A stretch of DNA of 48,406 bases from Marinitoga sp. 38H-ov. Its GTDB lineage: Bacteria > Thermotogota > Thermotogae > Petrotogales > Petrotogaceae. Each line of letters starts with the position of its first letter. The first letter of the stretch is position 1. Below, piece after piece: positions 9,574-29,429 of this stretch. Under the pieces are notes generated by a model. That model ran no database searches. It had not been told where the DNA came from and saw only the letters and a list, made by a program, of their open reading frames with translations. Location of the stretch: the NCBI RefSeq assembly GCF_011057715.1, contig NZ_LNGH01000012.1, positions 1 to 48,406 on the forward strand, given 5' to 3'. The position numbers and the translations under genes were made by a program.

Positions 9574-12500
9574 TTAACTAAGAGCTTCAAATATTTTAAC
9601 ATTTATATCTGCTATATTTAATTCTTTTTCTATTTCGTATTCTATATTTTTTATTTCTTTCTCTTTATTTAACCACCAATTTCTACTCCATATTCTTATA
9701 ATTTTCCAACCTTTTGATTCTAAAAATCTTTGTCTGTGTATATCTCTTTCTCTAGCGCTTTTACTACTATGATATCTTGCACCATCACATTCTATTCCTA
9801 GTATGTATTTTGATTGAACTGGATCATATATACCAATATCAATTCTATATCCAGATGAATTTATCTGGGTATGAATTTCAAGTTTATTATCTTTTATAAT
9901 AAAACTATTAGTTAAATGTTCATATACTTCCTCTTCAAATGGGCTTTCAAATATTATATTTTGGCTTCCCTCTATATTAGAGAGACTATACAATATTCTT
10001 TCTGCTTCCTTTTTATTATCTTGCGAAATTGCTCTTACATATTTTAAATAATCTTTTAAAAATTTTGGACCTCTATTTTTAAAATTATCAACATTTAATT
10101 CTTCTGGTTCAAATGAGGTAACAATATATATTTTTTTCTTTGCTCTTGAAATAGCGACATTTAATCTATTTTCACCACCTTCATTTGATAAAGAACCAAA
10201 GTAAAATCTAAATTTACCTTTTTCATCTTTTGAATAAGCTGTTGAAAATATGATAATATCTCTCTCATCACCTTGCACATTTTCTATATTTTTGACAAAT
10301 AAACTTTTATCTTCTCCATTTTCTGTTCTATTAAGTTCTATATTATATAAATTTTCAAATATCTTATCATTTCTTGCTTCATTATCGAGTAAGTCATATA
10401 TCAAATCTGCTTGATTTATATTAAAAGTTACTATTCCTATAGTCTCATTTTCCTTTCTTTCAAGTAGAATTTTTTTAACAAGAGCAACAACTTCTTTAGC
10501 TTCTTCTAAATTTTGTCTATTTTTCCATATTCCGTTTACTTTTATTCTTTCAATAGCTTTTTCATTAGATATATTTGGTGAAATATATAATTTTCCGTCA
10601 TAAAAAGCATGATTTGAAAAATCAATAAGCTCTTTATATTTTGATCTATAGTGAAAGAGAAGATGTGTTGAATCAAAATTAATTTTTGCAACATCAAGTA
10701 AACTTTCTTCTTCAATTGCTGTTGAAATTTCCATATCAAATTCTTCATCTATTTCTTCTCTAGACATAAATATAGAGGTTGGTTTAAGTTGTTTATCGTC
10801 ACCTGATACAACAACCTTTTTTGCTCTAAAAATAGCAGGAATAGCCTTTTCAACAAATATTTGTGAAGCTTCATCAAATATTATGATGTCAAACAATCCT
10901 TCCTTAAGAGGTAAAATTTCCGAAACACTTTCTGGAGTTGCAAGAAAACAAGGATATAAGTTAAATATTAAATTATCAAAAGTTTCTATTAATTTTCGTA
11001 TAGGTAAGAGTTTGGATTTTTTATGTATTTGTCTTTCAAAATTTTTAGATAATCTATAGTCGCTTCTTAACGCCTTTAAAAAATTACTATTCCATAAAGA
11101 ATTTATATATTTTACAACATCAGTTTTCTTGGTTTCCATGCTTTCGATAACATTTTTCACATATTCATCATACATTTCATATTTTAAAATTTTATTTTTT
11201 TCTTTTTTTTCTATTTCAGTTATTTTCTTTAAAATAAAGAATTTTTCAATTCTTTCAAAAACAAAATTTTCATTAAATCCTTTTTGTAAATATATAAATT
11301 CAAGGATTTCTTTTTCTATTTTTATAAGATTTGAAAATTCAACATTTAGCTTATAATATTCTTCGTAGTTCGTTAGAAAAATTTTTAATTTTTCAAGATA
11401 ATCTTTTAAATCGTATTCATTTATAAGTTTAATTTTAAAATTTTCAAAATCAATAACTTCTTTCAAAAACATTGATTTTGAAATAATATCTTTTGCTAAT
11501 TCAAAATCGTCTTTAATATTATTAAATATATTTTTTTCTTTTTCTTCTATTATTTTTTTTATTTCTTCCCTTTTATTTTTTCTTATGCTAAAAAATAAAA
11601 AATGTAATGGATTGTACCAATTAAATTTTGAAAATTTTTCAAATTTTTTGTATAGCTTTTTATTTTCTTTTTTGTTTAAAATTTTTGCAAAATTTTCCAA
11701 ATTTTGATTTTCAATTAATGCAATTTTTATATCCTCTTTATAATTACTATTGAATGATAACTTTCCTGGAAAATAATCTAAAAAATTAGAGATTTTATTT
11801 AAAGTTTCGTCTATTAAAAATAAATCTAAATCTTTTTTTGTATCTTCTATTTGATTTTTATATTCTTCTTGAATATTTCTATATTTAATATATCTTTCAA
11901 TTTTATCTTTTATATTATTACATGCCTCTTTTATTTCTATATATTTGTAATCTTGAAAATGTTCTCTAAATTTTGAAAATAATTTTTTCTCATCTTCAGA
12001 TAAATCTTGATTTGTTTTTGCATACATATTCGCAAGACTTAACCCAAAATCTCTTTCTTGATACATAATACTACCAAACTCTTCGAGTTCTTTTAGGTTT
12101 TTATTGATTTTTTCTGAATATTTTATTATATTGTTTAATATATCTTTATCTCCATCTTTTATACTTTCAAATTCATCTTTTATTTTTTTATATATTTCTT
12201 TTTTATCTTTCTGTGCATCGTGTATTAGCATTATTTTATTCTTAATAGGTGAAAGTCTATTAAGAATAACATCTAAAGCGGCTCTTTTTTCTGAAACAAC
12301 TAATACTTTTTTTCCTTTAGCTAGATTATGTGTAATAAGATTTGAAATTGTTTGAGATTTTCCTGTACCAGGAGGTCCATATATTACAAGTCCATCTTTT
12401 TCGTCAGACATTTTTATTGCTTTTTCTTGGCTAAAGTCTAGTGTTGATATATAATAAAAATCTTTCTCTTCAATATATTCTTTTTTTAAATCATTATTAT

Positions 12501-13332
12501 TATTATTATTATTATCTTTTTCTCCTAAAAGCAAATATTTTAATAATTTGTTATTTATATTTTGATTTTCAAGGTATAAATAATCATTATATATAGAACT
12601 TGAAAGTTTATAATTTCCAAGTATAAGATAATTTTTTATAACAAGTTTTGGTATTTTAATATCATTTTTCCCTTCAATAAATTTTTCTATAGTATTATTT
12701 TCATATTCTAATTCAATACCCAAATCTTTAAAATATTTTATAATACTTTCAGGTGTATAATCACCTTCATATTCTTTTTCGTTTATTTTTACTTCATTAT
12801 GTTTTTGATATGCAATCAAAAAGACTTTGTTTACTATAACATTTTCATCTTTTAATCTTTGAATATACCAATTTTTATCAATATTAATAAGGCTTATTGG
12901 AAATAAAAATAAAGGAGATTTTACATATGTTTCATCTTTTAATTTTCCTTCTACATATGGATAGCCTATATAAAGTTCATATCTTCCAGTTTCTTTTTCT
13001 ATAGTATTTATTTCTCTTTTTAAAGTTTTTAAAGAATGAGAAAAAGAATCTAGTTTTTCTTTTTTTATATATATTTCATCATCATCATTTTCTAATTTTT
13101 CTCTATTTTCTTTTATAAAAGCATTATAATCCAAAATACATACTTTTTCTTGTTGAGAAGAAATTATATGTTCTAAAATTTCTTTTGTAACACCTTCAAA
13201 GTATTCTTCAAATATTGCTAAATCAAAAGAACGTTTTTTATATAATTTTGTCATGCAAAAAGTTCTATTTTTTGAAGATATATCAATTAATCTATTCTTA
13301 TATTTCTCAAGAACAAAAGAGAAATTTGACAT
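9574..13332 (-). CDS. Large helicase-nuclease (DUF4011-like, SF1 helicase, Vsr-like nuclease)
   Basis: The protein has 1252 residues. The N-terminus has a DUF4011-like start (NRLIDISSKNR). The SF1/UPF1-like helicase core carries Walker A GPPGTGKS (about 319-326), Walker B DEAS (about 820), VVSGDDKQLKP and the motif VI LNVAISRAKKKIYI. A long Lys/Glu-rich coiled-coil-like insert (about 380-780) splits the core. The C-terminal 130 residues match the MTES/Vsr-like restriction fold: SGYRIDIGIYD, GIECDGARYH (Glu1181, Asp1183) and GWKIIRIWS. Similar DUF4011-helicase-Vsr proteins have been linked to phage defence. A run of seven Asn is encoded by (ATT)7 at 12493-12513. AAGGAG precedes the ATG. Confidence 0.85.
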   Translation of the reverse strand: MSNFSFVLEKYKNRLIDISSKNRTFCMTKLYKKRSFDLAIFEEYFEGVTKEILEHIISSQQEKVCILDYNAFIKENREKLENDDDEIYIKKEKLDSFSHSLKTLKREINTIEKETGRYELYIGYPYVEGKLKDETYVKSPLFLFPISLINIDKNWYIQRLKDENVIVNKVFLIAYQKHNEVKINEKEYEGDYTPESIIKYFKDLGIELEYENNTIEKFIEGKNDIKIPKLVIKNYLILGNYKLSSSIYNDYLYLENQNINNKLLKYLLLGEKDNNNNNNNDLKKEYIEEKDFYYISTLDFSQEKAIKMSDEKDGLVIYGPPGTGKSQTISNLITHNLAKGKKVLVVSEKRAALDVILNRLSPIKNKIMLIHDAQKDKKEIYKKIKDEFESIKDGDKDILNNIIKYSEKINKNLKELEEFGSIMYQERDFGLSLANMYAKTNQDLSEDEKKLFSKFREHFQDYKYIEIKEACNNIKDKIERYIKYRNIQEEYKNQIEDTKKDLDLFLIDETLNKISNFLDYFPGKLSFNSNYKEDIKIALIENQNLENFAKILNKKENKKLYKKFEKFSKFNWYNPLHFLFFSIRKNKREEIKKIIEEKEKNIFNNIKDDFELAKDIISKSMFLKEVIDFENFKIKLINEYDLKDYLEKLKIFLTNYEEYYKLNVEFSNLIKIEKEILEFIYLQKGFNENFVFERIEKFFILKKITEIEKKEKNKILKYEMYDEYVKNVIESMETKKTDVVKYINSLWNSNFLKALRSDYRLSKNFERQIHKKSKLLPIRKLIETFDNLIFNLYPCFLATPESVSEILPLKEGLFDIIIFDEASQIFVEKAIPAIFRAKKVVVSGDDKQLKPTSIFMSREEIDEEFDMEISTAIEEESLLDVAKINFDSTHLLFHYRSKYKELIDFSNHAFYDGKLYISPNISNEKAIERIKVNGIWKNRQNLEEAKEVVALVKKILLERKENETIGIVTFNINQADLIYDLLDNEARNDKIFENLYNIELNRTENGEDKSLFVKNIENVQGDERDIIIFSTAYSKDEKGKFRFYFGSLSNEGGENRLNVAISRAKKKIYIVTSFEPEELNVDNFKNRGPKFLKDYLKYVRAISQDNKKEAERILYSLSNIEGSQNIIFESPFEEEVYEHLTNSFIIKDNKLEIHTQINSSGYRIDIGIYDPVQSKYILGIECDGARYHSSKSARERDIHRQRFLESKGWKIIRIWSRNWWLNKEKEIKNIEYEIEKELNIADINVKIFEALS

Positions 13333-19496: not shown

Positions 19497-21023
19497 TCAC
19501 ATAATTTTTGATGGACTTTCAAAGTTTGTTTTTATAAACAACACATGAATTTTTACTCCATCTTTTTCTTCTGTAATATATTCAAAATCTTCTATTGTAT
19601 TTGAATATACAATCAACCATCCTTCTTTTAATCCTTTTCTTTTTATGTATTCTATTAATTGTTTTTTTGCTTTTTCATATTCATTTCCTGTTATATCAAC
19701 CTTTACTTCTATTAAATATTCTTTGTTATTCAGGTTTATTAATAAATCTATCCTTCCTCCGCCTACTTCTGTTTCTGGATATACTTTTCCATCTATCGCT
19801 TCTACGTATAAGCTTAGAAATTGATCCAGATTATATTGATATACTCCTTCATAATAATTCCTTCCTTTAAACATTATCGCTCCTCTTTGTTTTATATATT
19901 CTATATATCTTTTTAGTAATTTATTTAAATCAAGACTACCATCTTCTCTTATATACGGCTTTATTGTATCCTTTATTGTTGCCATGTAAGTTTTTTCTCC
20001 ATTTACTTGTGGTTTAAATCTGTCATATAATGCTTTGTAATATAACGGCACTCTTACACAACATTTCCCTTCACAATTATCTATTACTCCATTTAAGTAT
20101 AAGTAATTTATTCTTTCATCATATATATTGAATTCAACACTTTCTGGTTCAAATAATATTTTCATTATTAATTCTTTTTCTTTTTCTGCTTTTGATATTA
20201 TATTTGATATATTTTTATCTATATATTGATGCATAAAATCATATAATGTTTTTTCAAAATGTTTTTCTGTTATTATCTTTTCTCCTTTTGCCTTTTTTGC
20301 CACTAAATCATATGCCAGTGCATTGGTTAATCCCGGCTGCCCTCCCGCATTATGCCATATTAGTTCTTTTACTTTTTCTTCAAACACCTGCCCTGTTTCT
20401 TTTTCATGTTGGTTTAATAAGTCATATACCTGTTCTTTTGTAAAATACGGCACTTCCATATGTTCTGCTATGTTAAACGGACTTGCATTGTCTTCCAATA
20501 CTCCACTTAAATATCCTACACTTATTAATATTACGCTTCTTAGTTTATAACCTTGCCTTGAATGATATATATCTCTTATTACATGCAAAAATTCATTCAT
20601 TAATTTTTCTTCTAATATTTCAAATTCATCTATCATTAATATTACTTCTTTTCCAAATTTTTCATTTATATCCATTATATATTCATCCAGATCGCTTATT
20701 GCTGCTATCTTTTTTGGTTCAAATTCTATCTTCATATTAAAATCAAAGAAATTTTTAATCTTTTTAGTGAATTGTTTTATAAACTTTTCTTCAATTTTTA
20801 TATTCCCAAAACTTTCAAAAGATATAAATATTGGCAAATATTTTTCTTTTATTTTCTCAACTATATCATTCAAGAATGTTGTTTTTCCGCTCTGTCTTGG
20901 TGCAGAGACTGTGAAATATCTCCAATTTTCTATATGATCAAGTGCTTCTTTCATCAATTCCGGTCTTTCCACATAATAACATGTTTTCCTATCAACAGGT
21001 CCGCTTGTACAAAATCTTCTCAT
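19497..21023 (-). CDS. AAA ATPase with C-terminal PD-(D/E)XK domain (paralog A)
   Basis: The protein has 508 residues. The N-terminal ATPase has a CTSGPVDRKTCYYVERPELM start, Walker A APRQSGKTT (about 41-49) and Walker B ILMIDEFEIL. A winged-helix-like middle has a Cys pair (NCEGKCCV). The C-terminus holds a PD-(D/E)XK nuclease core: VGGGRIDLLINLNNK, then YLIEVKVD, with Asp and E-x-K in register. The family (AAA_35-like) is highly copied in Thermotogota genomes and may be selfish or defensive; its role is unproven. An extended -10 (TGTGATATAAT) is found upstream, shared with paralog B at 22771. Confidence 0.82.
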   Translation of the reverse strand: MRRFCTSGPVDRKTCYYVERPELMKEALDHIENWRYFTVSAPRQSGKTTFLNDIVEKIKEKYLPIFISFESFGNIKIEEKFIKQFTKKIKNFFDFNMKIEFEPKKIAAISDLDEYIMDINEKFGKEVILMIDEFEILEEKLMNEFLHVIRDIYHSRQGYKLRSVILISVGYLSGVLEDNASPFNIAEHMEVPYFTKEQVYDLLNQHEKETGQVFEEKVKELIWHNAGGQPGLTNALAYDLVAKKAKGEKIITEKHFEKTLYDFMHQYIDKNISNIISKAEKEKELIMKILFEPESVEFNIYDERINYLYLNGVIDNCEGKCCVRVPLYYKALYDRFKPQVNGEKTYMATIKDTIKPYIREDGSLDLNKLLKRYIEYIKQRGAIMFKGRNYYEGVYQYNLDQFLSLYVEAIDGKVYPETEVGGGRIDLLINLNNKEYLIEVKVDITGNEYEKAKKQLIEYIKRKGLKEGWLIVYSNTIEDFEYITEEKDGVKIHVLFIKTNFESPSKIM

Positions 21024-22770: not shown

Positions 22771-24297
22771 TTATTGTACTTTCGATGGACTTTCAAAGTT
22801 TGTTTTTATAAACCATATATGCAATTTTTTATCTTCATATTTTTCCAATATATATTCAAAATCTTCTATTGAACTTGAATATACTATTAACCATCCTTCA
22901 TTTAAATCATTCCTTTTTATGTATTCTATTAATTGTTTTTTCGCTTTTTCATATTCATTTCCTGTTATATCAACCTTTACTTCTATTAAATACTCTTTGT
23001 TATTAAAGTTTATTAATAAGTCTATCCTTCCTCCACCTACCTGCGTTTCTGGATATACTTTTCCTTCTGCTGCTTCTATGTATAAACTTAAAAATTGATC
23101 AAGATTATATTGATATACTCCTTCATAATAATTCCTTCCTTTAAACATTACCGCTCCTCTTTGTTTTATATATTTTATATATCTTTTTAGTAGTTTATTT
23201 AAATCTAAGCTTCCATCATCTTTTATATATGGCCTTATTGTATCCTTTATTGTTGCCATGTAAGTTTTTTCTCCATTTACTTGTGGTTTGAAATGATTGT
23301 ATAATTTTTTATAATACAACGGTACTTTCACACAACAATATCCATTACACTCATCTATTACTCCATTTAAATATAAATATTTTATTCTTTCATCACTTAT
23401 ATCAAATTCTATTTTATCTGGTTCAAATAAAATCTGCATTATTAAATCTTTTTCATTTTTTGCTTTTGATATTACATTTTCTATGTTTTTATTTATATAC
23501 TTTTTCAGAAAATCATATAGTGTCTTGTCAAAATGGGATTTTGTTACTATCTTTTCATTTTTTGCTTTTTTGACTACTAAATCATATGCTAATGCATTGG
23601 TTAATCCTGGTTGTCCCCCACCATTATGCCATATGAGCTCTTTTACTTCTTCTTCAAATATCTGTCCTGTTTCTTTTTCATGTTGTATTAATAAGTCATA
23701 TACCTGTTCTTTTGTAAAATATGGCACTTCCATATGCTCTGCTATATTAAATGGACTTGCATTATCTTCTAATATTCCACTTAAATATCCTACGCTTATT
23801 AGTATTACACTTCTTAATCTATGTAACTCTTTTTTATGATATATACTTCTTATTGCATGTAAAAAATCATTTATTATTTTAGAATTTTTAAATCTTTCAA
23901 ACTCATCTATCATTAATATTATTTCTTTTCCTGTTTTCATATGTATTTCTTTTATTAAATCTTTTATTTCATCGGTAATAGTTGGTATTTTTAATTCTAA
24001 ATCTATATTATGTCTATAATTAATATCTTCAATTATATCCTCTGTAAATACCTTTAGAAATTGTTGTTTGTTTTCTATATCATAACTTTCAAAGGATATG
24101 AATATAGGCAAATATTTATCTTTTGTTTTTTCAACTATATCATTTAAAAATGTAGTTTTTCCCGTTTGTCTTGGTGCAGAAACTGTAAAGTATCTCCAAT
24201 TTTCTATATGATCAATTGCTTCTTCCATTAATTCTGGTCTTTCTACATAATAACATGTTTTTCTATCAACAGGTCCGCTTGTACAAAATCTTCTCAT
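22771..24297 (-). CDS. AAA ATPase with C-terminal PD-(D/E)XK domain (paralog B)
   Basis: The protein has 508 residues, the same length as paralog A at 19497 and close in sequence over the whole length. The most divergent part is residues 70-150, after Walker A (APRQTGKTT) and around Walker B (LMIDEFERF), with partial divergence in the winged-helix middle. The nuclease motifs VGGGRIDLLINFNNK and LIEVKVD are kept. The same start phrase (MRRFCTSGPVDRK) and an extended -10 TGTGATATAATT occur upstream. The pair seems to be a duplication, with a different AAA/PD-(D/E)XK gene in between. Confidence 0.82.
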   Translation of the reverse strand: MRRFCTSGPVDRKTCYYVERPELMEEAIDHIENWRYFTVSAPRQTGKTTFLNDIVEKTKDKYLPIFISFESYDIENKQQFLKVFTEDIIEDINYRHNIDLELKIPTITDEIKDLIKEIHMKTGKEIILMIDEFERFKNSKIINDFLHAIRSIYHKKELHRLRSVILISVGYLSGILEDNASPFNIAEHMEVPYFTKEQVYDLLIQHEKETGQIFEEEVKELIWHNGGGQPGLTNALAYDLVVKKAKNEKIVTKSHFDKTLYDFLKKYINKNIENVISKAKNEKDLIMQILFEPDKIEFDISDERIKYLYLNGVIDECNGYCCVKVPLYYKKLYNHFKPQVNGEKTYMATIKDTIRPYIKDDGSLDLNKLLKRYIKYIKQRGAVMFKGRNYYEGVYQYNLDQFLSLYIEAAEGKVYPETQVGGGRIDLLINFNNKEYLIEVKVDITGNEYEKAKKQLIEYIKRNDLNEGWLIVYSSSIEDFEYILEKYEDKKLHIWFIKTNFESPSKVQ

Positions 24298-25543: not shown

Positions 25544-25717
25544 TTAACGAAATAATGTTTTTCTTAATTTTTCAACACCTTCTTTCTCTCTTTTTGGCGA
25601 TACCAATTTTCTATCTATTTTTATGGGTTTAGAAGGTGTTTGTATTATTCTAATAAAACTTTTTACTTCTTTTTTGCTTTTCAAAGTAAAGTCCCTATCA
25701 AAAGATGTTGTTACCAT
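25544..25717 (-). CDS. Small basic protein, unknown
   Basis: About 57 residues (MVTTSFDRDFTLKSKKEVKS start). A beta start, a short helix (KKEVKSFIRII), then SKPIKIDRKLVSPKREKEGV and a helical end. I recall similar short ORFs in Clostridia and Thermotogota near toxin or mobile genes but know no function. The ATG at 25717 with GAGGTG 6 bases upstream is preferred over GTG 25726. It has its own terminator. It could be an orphan antitoxin; not shown. Confidence 0.55.
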   Translation of the reverse strand: MVTTSFDRDFTLKSKKEVKSFIRIIQTPSKPIKIDRKLVSPKREKEGVEKLRKTLFR

Positions 25718-25984
25718 TATAATCACCTCGCTTCTCGTCTAATTATCTTCTATTATCATTATATAACTTTTTATCAAAAATACAGAATTACCACAAGATA
25801 TAAGAAAAAATATAAGTTTTAGAATCTTTAGAATTTATCAAAATGCAATTGATGTGCAACCTGTTTCTTTTTAGAATTATATTTTTTTTAAATTACATTT
25901 CGTCACACTTTTCATTTCTTTCTAATGTTAGTTAAAAGAAACTATTTATATAAGTAATAGTTTTAAACAAATAAAATTAAAAAA

Positions 25985-26111
25985 AGGCGTTAAGAGCTTA
26001 CGCTCGAAACGCCTATCCACTTTGGGATTAATTTTTCATTCGCTTGGGCCTCTAAGGGCATTAAAAATTTAACTCGCTTGGGCCTCTAAGGGCATAGTAA
26101 TACATAATCAC
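25985..26111 (-). ncRNA. Candidate small RNA with two direct repeats and its own terminator
   Basis: On the minus strand a promoter (26118-26146) is followed by two identical 22-bp units (26074-26095 and 26040-26061, 34-nt period), a small stem (AUCC/GGAU) and a strong terminator at 26014-25985 (AGGCGTT/AACGCCT with inner GAGC/GCTC, then T7). Each unit can fold as GCC(CUUAGA)GGC, with loop CUU able to pair with the following AAG, an H-type pseudoknot. Repeated pseudoknot RNAs are the antitoxins of type III toxin-antitoxin systems. No ORF is present. A PemK/MazF-like gene lies 110 bases upstream on the same strand. Role is inferred. Confidence 0.55.
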
Positions 26112-26117
26112 ATGTAT

Positions 26118-26146
26118 ACTATAACATAAAAACGTCAATTTGTTAA
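26118..26146 (-). promoter_or_regulatory. Promoter of the candidate small RNA
   Basis: Minus strand TTAACA (26146-26141), exactly 17-bp spacer, TATAGT (26123-26118). The start would be near 26111. Confidence 0.65.
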
Positions 26147-26220
26147 ACTGATAATAGTATTATATTGACTGATTTAGCATAATTATATAAAAATATTCTC
26201 AATTACAAACTATTTTCTTG

Positions 26221-26811
26221 TTATTCTTTTGTTTTGCTTTTTTTCTCTGCTTTCCCTATAAAGATTTGTGAAAGAGCATCATCTAACTCTATTAAATGCT
26301 TGGTTTTCAGTTTTGAATATATATACTTATTCCCAAAATCTTTATGCTTTCTTAATCTTAATTTACTTATCGCCCTAATATGCATTAAGTTTATACAGCT
26401 ATTATCTTTTAATTCTGGAATATCATCAACTTTAATTAATCCGTTAAAATTTTTATTTGTTCCCTTTCCATTAAAAGTTGTAATAGGTGCTACAATTAAC
26501 GTATGTGCTTTAGGTGAATTGTATTTTTCTAAAACAACAGCAGGCCTTTTCCCCATTTGCTCAGAACCTAATATCAAACCAAAATCTACATAAATTATGT
26601 CTCCTTTTTTGAATCGTGGAAGATTTTCATATTTGAAAGAAAAATCTTCTAAACTTTTATTTAAATGCTTTTCAAATTCAACAAAAAGATTATTTATCTT
26701 TTTAAGATTATTATTTTTAAGATTAACATTATTTAGAATATTCTTTATGTTTTCTACTATATTCTCTATATTTTTCTTCACATCAGCAATTGTAATCTTA
26801 TTATTGGACAT
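26221..26811 (-). CDS. PemK/MazF-like endoribonuclease toxin with N-terminal extension
   Basis: The protein has 196 residues. Residues 1-65 are a Lys/Asn-rich coiled-coil-like head. From about 68 the MazF fold begins: KKGDIIYVDFGLILGSEQMGKRPAVVLEK, then LIVAPITTF and SCINLMHIRAISKLRL. MazF/PemK toxins cut mRNA, and the Gly-x-Glu-x2-Gly-x-Arg-Pro motif is intact. No protein antitoxin gene is next to it. A candidate structured small RNA lies downstream on the same strand, which is notable because type III toxins share this fold. AAAGGTGG precedes the ATG. Confidence 0.8.
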   Translation of the reverse strand: MSNNKITIADVKKNIENIVENIKNILNNVNLKNNNLKKINNLFVEFEKHLNKSLEDFSFKYENLPRFKKGDIIYVDFGLILGSEQMGKRPAVVLEKYNSPKAHTLIVAPITTFNGKGTNKNFNGLIKVDDIPELKDNSCINLMHIRAISKLRLRKHKDFGNKYIYSKLKTKHLIELDDALSQIFIGKAEKKSKTKE

Positions 26812-27730: not shown

Positions 27731-28681
27731 TTATAATTTCTCTTTTTTATGCGATATATATTTATTCTCTGTTATTAACGATTGTTCGTAGTCATCATTC
27801 AGAACTTTAACTAAATCATCCAAATCAGTATTTTTATCAATAATTATTTTATTATTTTTAATCTCTACACCAATTGGTATATCTTTTTTTAAAATTTTTA
27901 ATTTTTCCATATCAATTTTTTTATAATATTTATTTCTTTGTGCAGTATACAGTTTGTGTGCAAATCGTTTTGATGTTTCTATTTTAGACAATATTTTATT
28001 CTTTGCCTCATTATCTATTTTTAAGAATGTAATTTGTTCGAACGAATTAATAAAATCTTTTGATTCATTTTGATAATATTCAACAAAATTAAAAATATAT
28101 TCAAATTTTGATAAGTTTTTTGATATGAAAAAATTATCCATTAATATAATATCGAATGTATTTCCCATTCCCAATATATTATCTTTTACTAGTTTAAACT
28201 CATCATTATCTAAAATAAAGAACATCTTTTTTGTATGCATAAATTGTGATTTAATAAATTTTTGAAAAAATAAAAATTGTTTTGTAATTTTATCACTTTC
28301 AAATTCGATTTTTATTATCCAAGCTTTTATTTTATTAATTTCATTTAAAGTATCCTTTGATATTATTTCAGGTTCTTTTTCCTCAGTAATATACGGATAT
28401 ATTTCTTGAAAATCTTTTATTTCAGAGGTATTAATTTTAAAAATAGGTTGTTCTTCATCAGGATTGTAATCAGGTATCTTATTATTTAATTCTTCTATTT
28501 GGTTTATATAATTGTCAATCTCATCCATTAAAATTTTCGATATCTTTTCCCTGATATCTGTACCAAAAAGTAATTTATAGACAACGAAAGGTACTTTTTT
28601 CGTTTCTTTTTTTTCAAATAGATAAATCTTTATTGAAGCACTATCTAATTTAGATTTAATTTCTTCAAAAACATTCTTCAT
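27731..28681 (-). CDS. kwaB: Kiwa anti-phage protein KwaB (DUF4868)
   Basis: The protein has 316 residues, the usual KwaB length. The DUF4868 core is visible: IKAWIIKIEFESDKITKQFL, then FFILDNDEFKLV and FDIILMDNFFISKNLSKFEY with a FEYIFNFV helix, and a C-terminal helical part. KwaB is the cytoplasmic DNA-binding partner that acts with membrane protein KwaA in Kiwa, a two-gene defence system triggered at the membrane during phage infection. The ATG overlaps the KwaA stop (ATGA), the gene order of known Kiwa operons. Recognition is from family features; no search was run. Confidence 0.83.
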   Translation of the reverse strand: MKNVFEEIKSKLDSASIKIYLFEKKETKKVPFVVYKLLFGTDIREKISKILMDEIDNYINQIEELNNKIPDYNPDEEQPIFKINTSEIKDFQEIYPYITEEKEPEIISKDTLNEINKIKAWIIKIEFESDKITKQFLFFQKFIKSQFMHTKKMFFILDNDEFKLVKDNILGMGNTFDIILMDNFFISKNLSKFEYIFNFVEYYQNESKDFINSFEQITFLKIDNEAKNKILSKIETSKRFAHKLYTAQRNKYYKKIDMEKLKILKKDIPIGVEIKNNKIIIDKNTDLDDLVKVLNDDYEQSLITENKYISHKKEKL

Positions 28682-29262
28682 TCAGCATCCCCCCTAAACA
28701 AATATAATCCAGGATTAATCTGTATTATTTTCACCTTTTTTTGCTCTCTAATAAAATTATTCATTTGATAAAAAGATAATTTTGTTAAAAGAATTGCAGA
28801 TTTATTATTTTTCCAGCTGTTCTGTTTAAAATCAAATTCAATTACATGATAACCTAATATCATTAATATAGGATTTACAGCAAACATATCACTTTTTATA
28901 TAAAGAATTGCTATTAAAAATATTAAAATTATCAGGATAATTACATTTTTTCCTTGATTAAATGTTAATAAAGGTAATATATAAGTAACTAAATAGGAGG
29001 TAACTTCGCTATCTATAGTTTTACATGATTTGATTTCTACAATATCAAAATCAGTTGAGCTTTTAAAATACTTTAGCATACAAAAAAGGCATAATATTGA
29101 TAAAGAAAAAAAGAAAAAAACCCAAGATAAAAACGTATTGAAATGAAAAAAAGGAAATTTACAATTAATAGTATTATAATCAATAACCCAGTACATAAAA
29201 TAAAATGGTATATACGAAGTAAGAAACAAAATCACTTTAAATAATAAGCTAAGTTTTTTCAT
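28678..29262 (-). CDS. kwaA: Kiwa anti-phage membrane protein KwaA
   Basis: About 194 residues with four hydrophobic helices: KVILFLTSYIPFYFMYWVI at the start, a second with WVFFFFSLSILCLFCML, a third near VTSYLVTYILPLLTF and a fourth VIILIILIFLIAILYI. A Cys-containing loop and a short cytoplasmic end with GLYLFRGD follow. The SYIP and YLVTYILP phrases and the four-helix plan fit KwaA, the membrane sensor of Kiwa. The ATG at 29262 with GAGGAGGTG upstream is preferred over GTG 29271. Translationally coupled to kwaB. Confidence 0.82.
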   Translation of the reverse strand: MKKLSLLFKVILFLTSYIPFYFMYWVIDYNTINCKFPFFHFNTFLSWVFFFFSLSILCLFCMLKYFKSSTDFDIVEIKSCKTIDSEVTSYLVTYILPLLTFNQGKNVIILIILIFLIAILYIKSDMFAVNPILMILGYHVIEFDFKQNSWKNNKSAILLTKLSFYQMNNFIREQKKVKIIQINPGLYLFRGDAE

Positions 29263-29429
29263 TACCAACACCTCCTCACATATAATGTTTTCGTATAATT
29301 AATAAATTTAATAATTGTTTTTAAGAAAATATTCTAATTCTGAGTTATTATTTAACTATAGTGATTCAATCACTTTTCATGTATTATAAATATATTTAAT
29401 CCAATATTCCTCTCTTCATCTTCTTTTCT

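Follow-up and report, generated by a model that had tools for sequence, protein, structure and literature searches.

The locus examined here raises the question of what restrains a toxin of the MazF fold whose gene has a small RNA, rather than a gene for a protein antitoxin, as its neighbor. It lies in the 48,406-nucleotide stretch of DNA from Marinitoga sp. 38H-ov (NZ_LNGH01000012.1) that was analyzed as a whole and is referred to below as the window. Read from the sequence, the minus strand holds a PemK gene (26811-26221) and, 110 nt beyond its end, a predicted RNA in the same orientation. The features of the locus are collected in Table 1.

Table 1. Coordinates of the toxin gene, the predicted RNA and its signals in the window
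Feature	Position	Strand	Basis or remark
PemK/MazF-fold toxin gene, 196 aa	26221..26811	-	PF02452, E 2.3e-15; AlphaFold; phrog_1412
Predicted promoter of the RNA	26118..26146	-	TTAACA-17-TATAGT, extended -10 TG; sequence, and a similar site ahead of the RNA in most relatives
-35 element, TTAACA	26146-26141	-	Read from sequence; 17-nt spacer follows
Extended -10 element, TG-TATAGT	26123-26118	-	Read from sequence
Predicted small RNA, putative antitoxin, ~133 nt	25979..26111	-	Start at ~26111 inferred from the -10 element
Repeat unit 1, AUGCCCUUAGAGGCCCAAGCGA	26074..26095	-	GCC/GGC stem, loop CUUAGA; aligned with homologous repeats
Repeat unit 2, identical to unit 1	26040..26061	-	34 nt further on
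Intrinsic terminator	25979..26013	-	28-nt stem-loop followed by U7; folding; same place in relatives

The predicted RNA is built around the 22-nt sequence ATGCCCTTAGAGGCCCAAGCGA, which occurs at 26095-26074 and again at 26061-26040, with a period of 34 nt, and a repeat search returned a 28-nt pair of 93% identity at the RNA. A possible degenerate third repeat, TTAATCCCAAAGTGGATAGGCG, is found between repeat 2 and the terminator at about 26010-26035 (minus strand). The stem-loop of the terminator, GGCGTTTCGAGCGTAAGCTCTTAACGCC (26013-25986), precedes a run of seven T residues; it is visible by folding, and the terminator scan did not pick it up because the stem contains an internal mismatch. A simple promoter scan placed the RNA promoter as joint best of 18 sites in the region. 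According to the same scan, promoter-like sites in the region are no commoner than in shuffled sequence, so promoter strength alone proves nothing, and the evidential weight is instead in the recurrence of a similar predicted site at the same position in relatives. An earlier note on this DNA had described the promoter, the two identical repeats and the terminator, all of which are borne out here, together with an RNA of about 125 nt; an RNA is indeed predicted, although its length comes to about 133 nt when counted from the start placed at ~26111. No Rfam family matches the RNA at any locus scanned, the weak matches being noise, and the matches to Spy779816, traJ-II, tRNA and skipping-rope are located beside the RNA and never on it.

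The neighboring protein was described in the same note as having the MazF fold and no protein antitoxin partner, and both statements agree with our results. PF02452 (PemK_toxin) is the only Pfam family to score above its cut-off. The AlphaFold model (pLDDT 76.8) has its closest fold matches in the MazF proteins of Staphylococcus aureus and Bacillus subtilis, with Z of about 15-16, and PDB profile searches with either Marinitoga or mixed alignments returned MazF/Kid chains. The matches listed by VIA-align are MazF/CcdB-like only, and the absence of ToxN from that list is uninformative. On the evidence of alignment and model, the core of the toxin (residues about 65-187) belongs with MazF/EndoA, and the two N-terminal helices (residues 8-28 and 33-58) are an addition relative to MazF. 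The position of the MazF catalytic arginine is retained in the Marinitoga members (R89 in the alignment) and is occupied by histidine in many Gram-positive members of the long type defined below, the activity of which could differ. The phage protein family phrog_1412 matches residues 12-116 of the window protein (E 7e-14). Many phage records (L042-L044, L049 and L051 here) label long-type PemK toxins "antitoxin mazE-like", probably by mistake; what these proteins contain is the toxin domain of MazF, and the phrog_1412 label is probably reversed. PADLOC has no model for the window toxin or for the two phage members that were tried.

We did not detect a plausible antitoxin ORF between the toxin gene and kwaB, the next gene upstream in the window. 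Across the loci compared, the upstream neighbor varies and may be KwaB, ImmA, a phage repressor, replication genes, a recombinase or others; these loci have no conserved protein partner. The window neighborhood itself contains the Kiwa pair KwaA (28678-29271) and KwaB (27731-28681) on the minus strand (27731-29271); the pair immediately precedes the toxin locus, which hints at a defense island. On the other side, beyond the RNA, MVTTSFDRDFTLKSKKEVKSFI... begins a 60-aa ORF (25544-25726, minus strand) that resembles a small antitoxin and has no Pfam match; no ORF of at least 60 aa is listed after it. Two closely similar 508-aa ATPases of the AAA_35 type with a PD-(D/E)XK-like C-terminus are encoded at 19497-21023 and 22771-24297 (minus strand), separated by a gene for a 556-aa protein that by eye is AAA-ATPase_like/PDDEXK_9-like. 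A 1252-aa helicase-nuclease-like protein (9574-13332, minus strand) matches the PADLOC candidate defense model PDC-S37 with E 6e-175.

Evidence that the RNA belongs with the toxin comes from the distribution of both among relatives. A protein search of 103 Thermotogota genomes found homologs of the full-length toxin in the same genome (contig C21), in M. lauensis and M. piezophila, and in the more distant genomes G023 and G060. Downstream of the toxin gene, these loci all have on its strand a promoter, the sequence ACUGUGCCCUUAGCGGCCC...GAAAUUGCCCUUAGCGGCCC... and a terminator, in that order; the first repeat of the Thermotogota long-type loci begins 42-153 nt past the toxin stop codon, and two viral contigs have the same layout of toxin, promoter, repeats and terminator. 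A PF02452 search listed the PemK genes of the phylum, of which 16 encode short, ordinary MazF proteins (about 110-142 aa) and the rest are of a long type, with about 185-205 aa, two extra N-terminal helices and no protein antitoxin. The RNA is present downstream at all seven long-type loci and at none of the 16 short MazF loci in the 103 genomes (Fisher p = 4e-6). R1, a covariance model built for this RNA, matches each intact long-type locus and no short MazF locus; across the same genomes it gave eight strong matches with E < 1e-14, which are the seven long-type loci and one scar, and the next match stands at 2.6e-4. An exact-repeat search of viral contigs and 60 relatives found nothing outside the window, since the RNA changes in sequence too quickly to be traced by pattern matching. 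The pairing of the RNA with the toxin in the earlier note is supported by these seven of seven long-type loci against none of 16 short ones. Of the two alternatives that it offered, the order of RNA after toxin is real and conserved across loci, and an orphan RNA is excluded.

The scar, in genome G022, is an RNA with its toxin absent. G022 is collinear with G023, the flanks being 97% and 86% identical, and about 690 nt that in G023 comprise the toxin gene and the RNA promoter are replaced in G022 by 28 nt. To judge by the leftover RNA, the direction of change is probably deletion in G022. The leftover repeats lack conserved letters (GCCCTTAGCGGTC -> GTACTAAGCGATC), and such decay of the RNA after toxin loss would be the behavior expected of a dedicated antitoxin. 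A second copy of the module in M. lauensis (L027, at a contig start), about 13 kb from the intact one, has an intact RNA, although its toxin gene is disrupted by frameshifts and stop codons.

The arrangement extends beyond Thermotogota, to Bacillota, Fusobacteriota and Acinetobacter. Some 40 related loci, on phages, plasmids and chromosomes and spread over four bacterial phyla, have a predicted two-hairpin RNA after the toxin gene. Searches of plasmids and phages with the long-type toxins found long-type PemK on plasmids of Natranaerobius, Bacillus, Sutcliffiella, Rummeliibacillus, Enterococcus, Fusobacterium, Leptotrichia and Acinetobacter, and in temperate phages and satellites of Staphylococcus and Streptococcus. 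Another 80 loci, many of them near-identical, came from scanning viral contigs with a profile; profiles succeeded where single-protein scans of genome contigs (one scan) and viral contigs (two scans) gave no matches. In nearly all of the distinct loci that were read, a sigma-70-like promoter is located close to the stop codon of the toxin gene, and after it come two short hairpins and then an intrinsic terminator. The hairpins of pneumococcal phage 040922 are GGAG-UUUAG-CUCC and GGAU-UUUAG-AUCC; those of S. aureus phage 92 have the stems GCCGC/GCGGC and GUCGC/GCGAC around the same loop, and a Leptotrichia hairpin, GGU-CUUAGC-ACC, has the loop of the Marinitoga RNA. One long-type module (L032, NC_016748.1, 9073-9675, plus strand) is on pMARPI01, the pirate plasmid pMP1 of M. 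piezophila, which is packaged by phage MPV1; the paper on this plasmid makes no mention of a toxin (PMC11921389). In six streptococcal phages (L041, L043, L044, L051, L066 and L069) the Rfam sRNA Spy779816 matches near the RNA terminator on the opposite strand, in most of them between that terminator and the integrase, and some of these matches are below the gathering score.

Counts over the wider set of loci show the same architecture. A terminator was found downstream of 30 of 38 long loci and 4 of 19 short loci (p 4e-5), and these counts are lower bounds, the scans having missed several visible terminators, including that of the window with its imperfect stem. Two hairpins are present in 22 of the 28 testable long loci, compared with 5.3 expected from shuffled sequences; the six in which the hairpin scan did not find two are L037, L042, L047, L049, L063 and L064, and in L037 and L042 the loops are larger. 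Promoters score 10.0 of 12 on average, and shuffled sequences 8.5. The body of the RNA is self-similar at p <= 0.05 in 14 of 38 long loci, a test that is only partly significant because the stems covary instead of repeating exactly, and the hairpin test is the more telling of the two. The RNAs of distant groups are not alignable, and R1 and R2 gave no convincing cross-match; it is for this reason that the case for a single RNA family is made from its position and its architecture.

Given seven streptococcal-type phage RNAs, which we excised from their loci and whose alignment and fold were not fitted to the hairpins, RNAalifold predicted two 4-bp hairpins unprompted. In this alignment 96% of the cells are paired and 15 are changed on both sides, a level not reached in any of 500 shuffles, and pairing falls to 29-50% when the register is shifted by one to three columns. 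The stems of the streptococcal phage group clearly covary through compensatory changes. Stems of the Marinitoga group read GCC/GGC, or GCC/GGU in two units. What is conserved is a short stem that closes a loop of about 5-6 nt. The earlier note had also proposed that a CUU loop pairs with AAG to form a pseudoknot like that of ToxI. This pairing, in that register or shifted by one, can be formed by 5 of 15 Marinitoga-type repeat units; other registers would serve some of the remaining units, and several have none. The CUU:AAG pseudoknot is therefore rejected for now as a conserved feature, and a pseudoknot of some kind in the repeats is possible.

The reading that we prefer, with a probability of roughly three in four, is that the locus is a two-part toxin-antitoxin module composed of an endoribonuclease of the MazF lineage and a downstream, separately transcribed two-hairpin RNA, the putative antitoxin. 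Several observations fit an RNA antitoxin that acts on the protein: order and orientation are conserved, as is the RNA architecture with its covarying stem, no protein partner is conserved, mobile elements carry the module, and toxin and RNA decay jointly. We infer transcription, RNA-protein binding, inhibition, RNA instability and a biological role along the following lines. By attaching to the toxin, the RNA repeats would most likely cover the face of the protein that binds RNA or holds the active site, as the ToxI and AbiF RNAs do; one guess is that the N-terminal extension is the part that binds RNA. Because it has its own promoter, the RNA could be produced in excess of the toxin. If the element were lost, or host transcription stopped, for example by a phage, the short-lived RNA would vanish and the stable toxin would be released. 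For the phages, satellites, plasmids and islands that carry it, the module would thereby be a means of addiction or abortive infection.

In the most probable of the alternatives, the RNA works together with the protein without inhibiting it. It would be, for example, a guide, scaffold, cofactor or decoy by which the MazF-like nuclease is positioned or activated, or it would sense phage infection. The conserved linkage of toxin and RNA is equally expected for a partner of this kind, and the replacement of the active-site arginine by histidine in many members may mean that the protein is not a free-acting toxin. However, the Marinitoga members retain the arginine, carriage by plasmids and phages fits an antitoxin better, and to our knowledge the MazF-fold ribonucleases studied so far are free-acting toxins; we regard this alternative as unlikely. 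Less likely again is a type I-like or cis-acting element that pairs with the toxin mRNA or controls the transcription or translation of a neighbor. A small RNA with exposed loops adjoining a toxin gene would suit such a role, as would its location between toxin and integrase in most of the streptococcal and staphylococcal phages read, but the RNA is on the strand of the toxin and not antisense to it, the genes downstream vary by locus, and the stems are conserved while the sequence is not. Moreover, the duplex energy of the RNA with its own toxin leader, calculated for the leader region only, is no better than with shuffled leaders at all seven loci.

A small undetected protein antitoxin, with the RNA as a bystander or as the 3' end of the toxin mRNA, has in our view a very low probability. 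AT-rich DNA allows many small ORFs, and the window has the 60-aa ORF downstream; against this, the interval up to the next upstream gene contains no plausible ORF, the neighbors are not conserved, and the ordinary short MazF loci of the phylum do without the RNA. Chance, or ordinary intergenic repeats, would draw on the promoter-like sites that are common in the AT-rich DNA of the window, and this reading, to which we give almost no weight, is refuted by the presence of the RNA at every long-type PemK locus of the phylum and by the covariance model search of the 103 genomes, in which the next match is weaker by many orders of magnitude.

Searches of open-access literature turned up no account of a PemK/MazF toxin with an RNA partner downstream; a prior description in subscription papers or preprints is possible. 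If the toxin-antitoxin reading is true, many partnerless "type II PemK/MazF toxins", including those beside the integrases of staphylococcal and streptococcal temperate phages, gain an RNA antitoxin; RNA-neutralized toxins gain a family with reversed gene order; and pMP1, the pirate plasmid of M. piezophila, bears an addiction module. It would also point to more than one origin of RNA antitoxins on the MazF fold, and roles in phage and satellite maintenance and in phage exclusion would become directly testable. Somewhat better than even, in our estimate, are the odds for the wider proposal that MazF-type nucleases swapped their protein antitoxin for a two-hairpin RNA transcribed on its own downstream, separately from ToxN, CptN and TenpN, giving rise to a large class, so far overlooked, that spread on phages, satellites and plasmids through at least four phyla.

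Among known systems, type II MazEF/PemIK shares the MazF catalytic core and fold, and differs in that no MazE/PemI protein antitoxin was found at the long-type loci, which have two extra N-terminal helices and an RNA partner. The phage members are covered by phrog_1412, whose entry is labeled antitoxin and does not mention an RNA partner. The Rfam pemK RNA, RF02913, has the name in common only and is a different RNA; it has no match in the window, in the 103 Thermotogota genomes or on the long-type plasmids. Two genuine RF02913 RNAs, in inverted orientation, are found in Enterococcus faecalis (L172, NZ_CP143580.1, 222478-222534 and 224641-224697). They lie among genes for sigma factor, HTH and integrase proteins, in a 6.3-kb stretch with no annotated PemK gene, and each looks like one larger hairpin.

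All type III systems share an order of RNA repeats first, then a terminator and then the toxin, expressed from one promoter (type III review 2016, PMC5086642). Common to ToxIN, CptIN and TenpIN and the module described here are an endoribonuclease of the MazF/Kid/CcdB fold class, a small tandem-repeat RNA, an intrinsic terminator and carriage by plasmids and phages, and the repeat period of 34 nt in the window is within the 34-36 nt of ToxI. In contrast to type III, the RNA is downstream of the toxin and, at most of the loci that were read, has a predicted promoter to itself, the terminator follows the RNA on the side far from the toxin instead of lying between the two, and the toxin scores as PemK/MazF (PF02452) and not as ToxN, CptN or TenpN. 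A ToxI-type pseudoknot, while possible in the repeats, is not conserved in its CUU:AAG form across the Marinitoga-type units. The likeness to type III antitoxins seen by the earlier note holds for the tandem repeats and the MazF/Kid-like fold, and fails for gene order and toxin family, by which the module is not a member of ToxIN, CptIN or TenpIN. Its working mode is probably like that of type III systems all the same.

In the AbiF/RCd22 system of a Clostridioides difficile phage, an RNA neutralizes a toxic protein by direct binding (PMC12373285). That system has an Abi_2/AbiD/F toxin, an upstream RNA cotranscribed by read-through and the motif RF03085 (PMC12373285), of which we found no match in any locus scanned; its toxin is unrelated to the PemK protein. 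What it shares with the module described here is a phage-borne RNA of about 100-130 nt with two repeat motifs, a promoter (a SigA promoter in RCd22) and a terminator (PMC12373285), and in RNA layout AbiF/RCd22 is the nearest known system.
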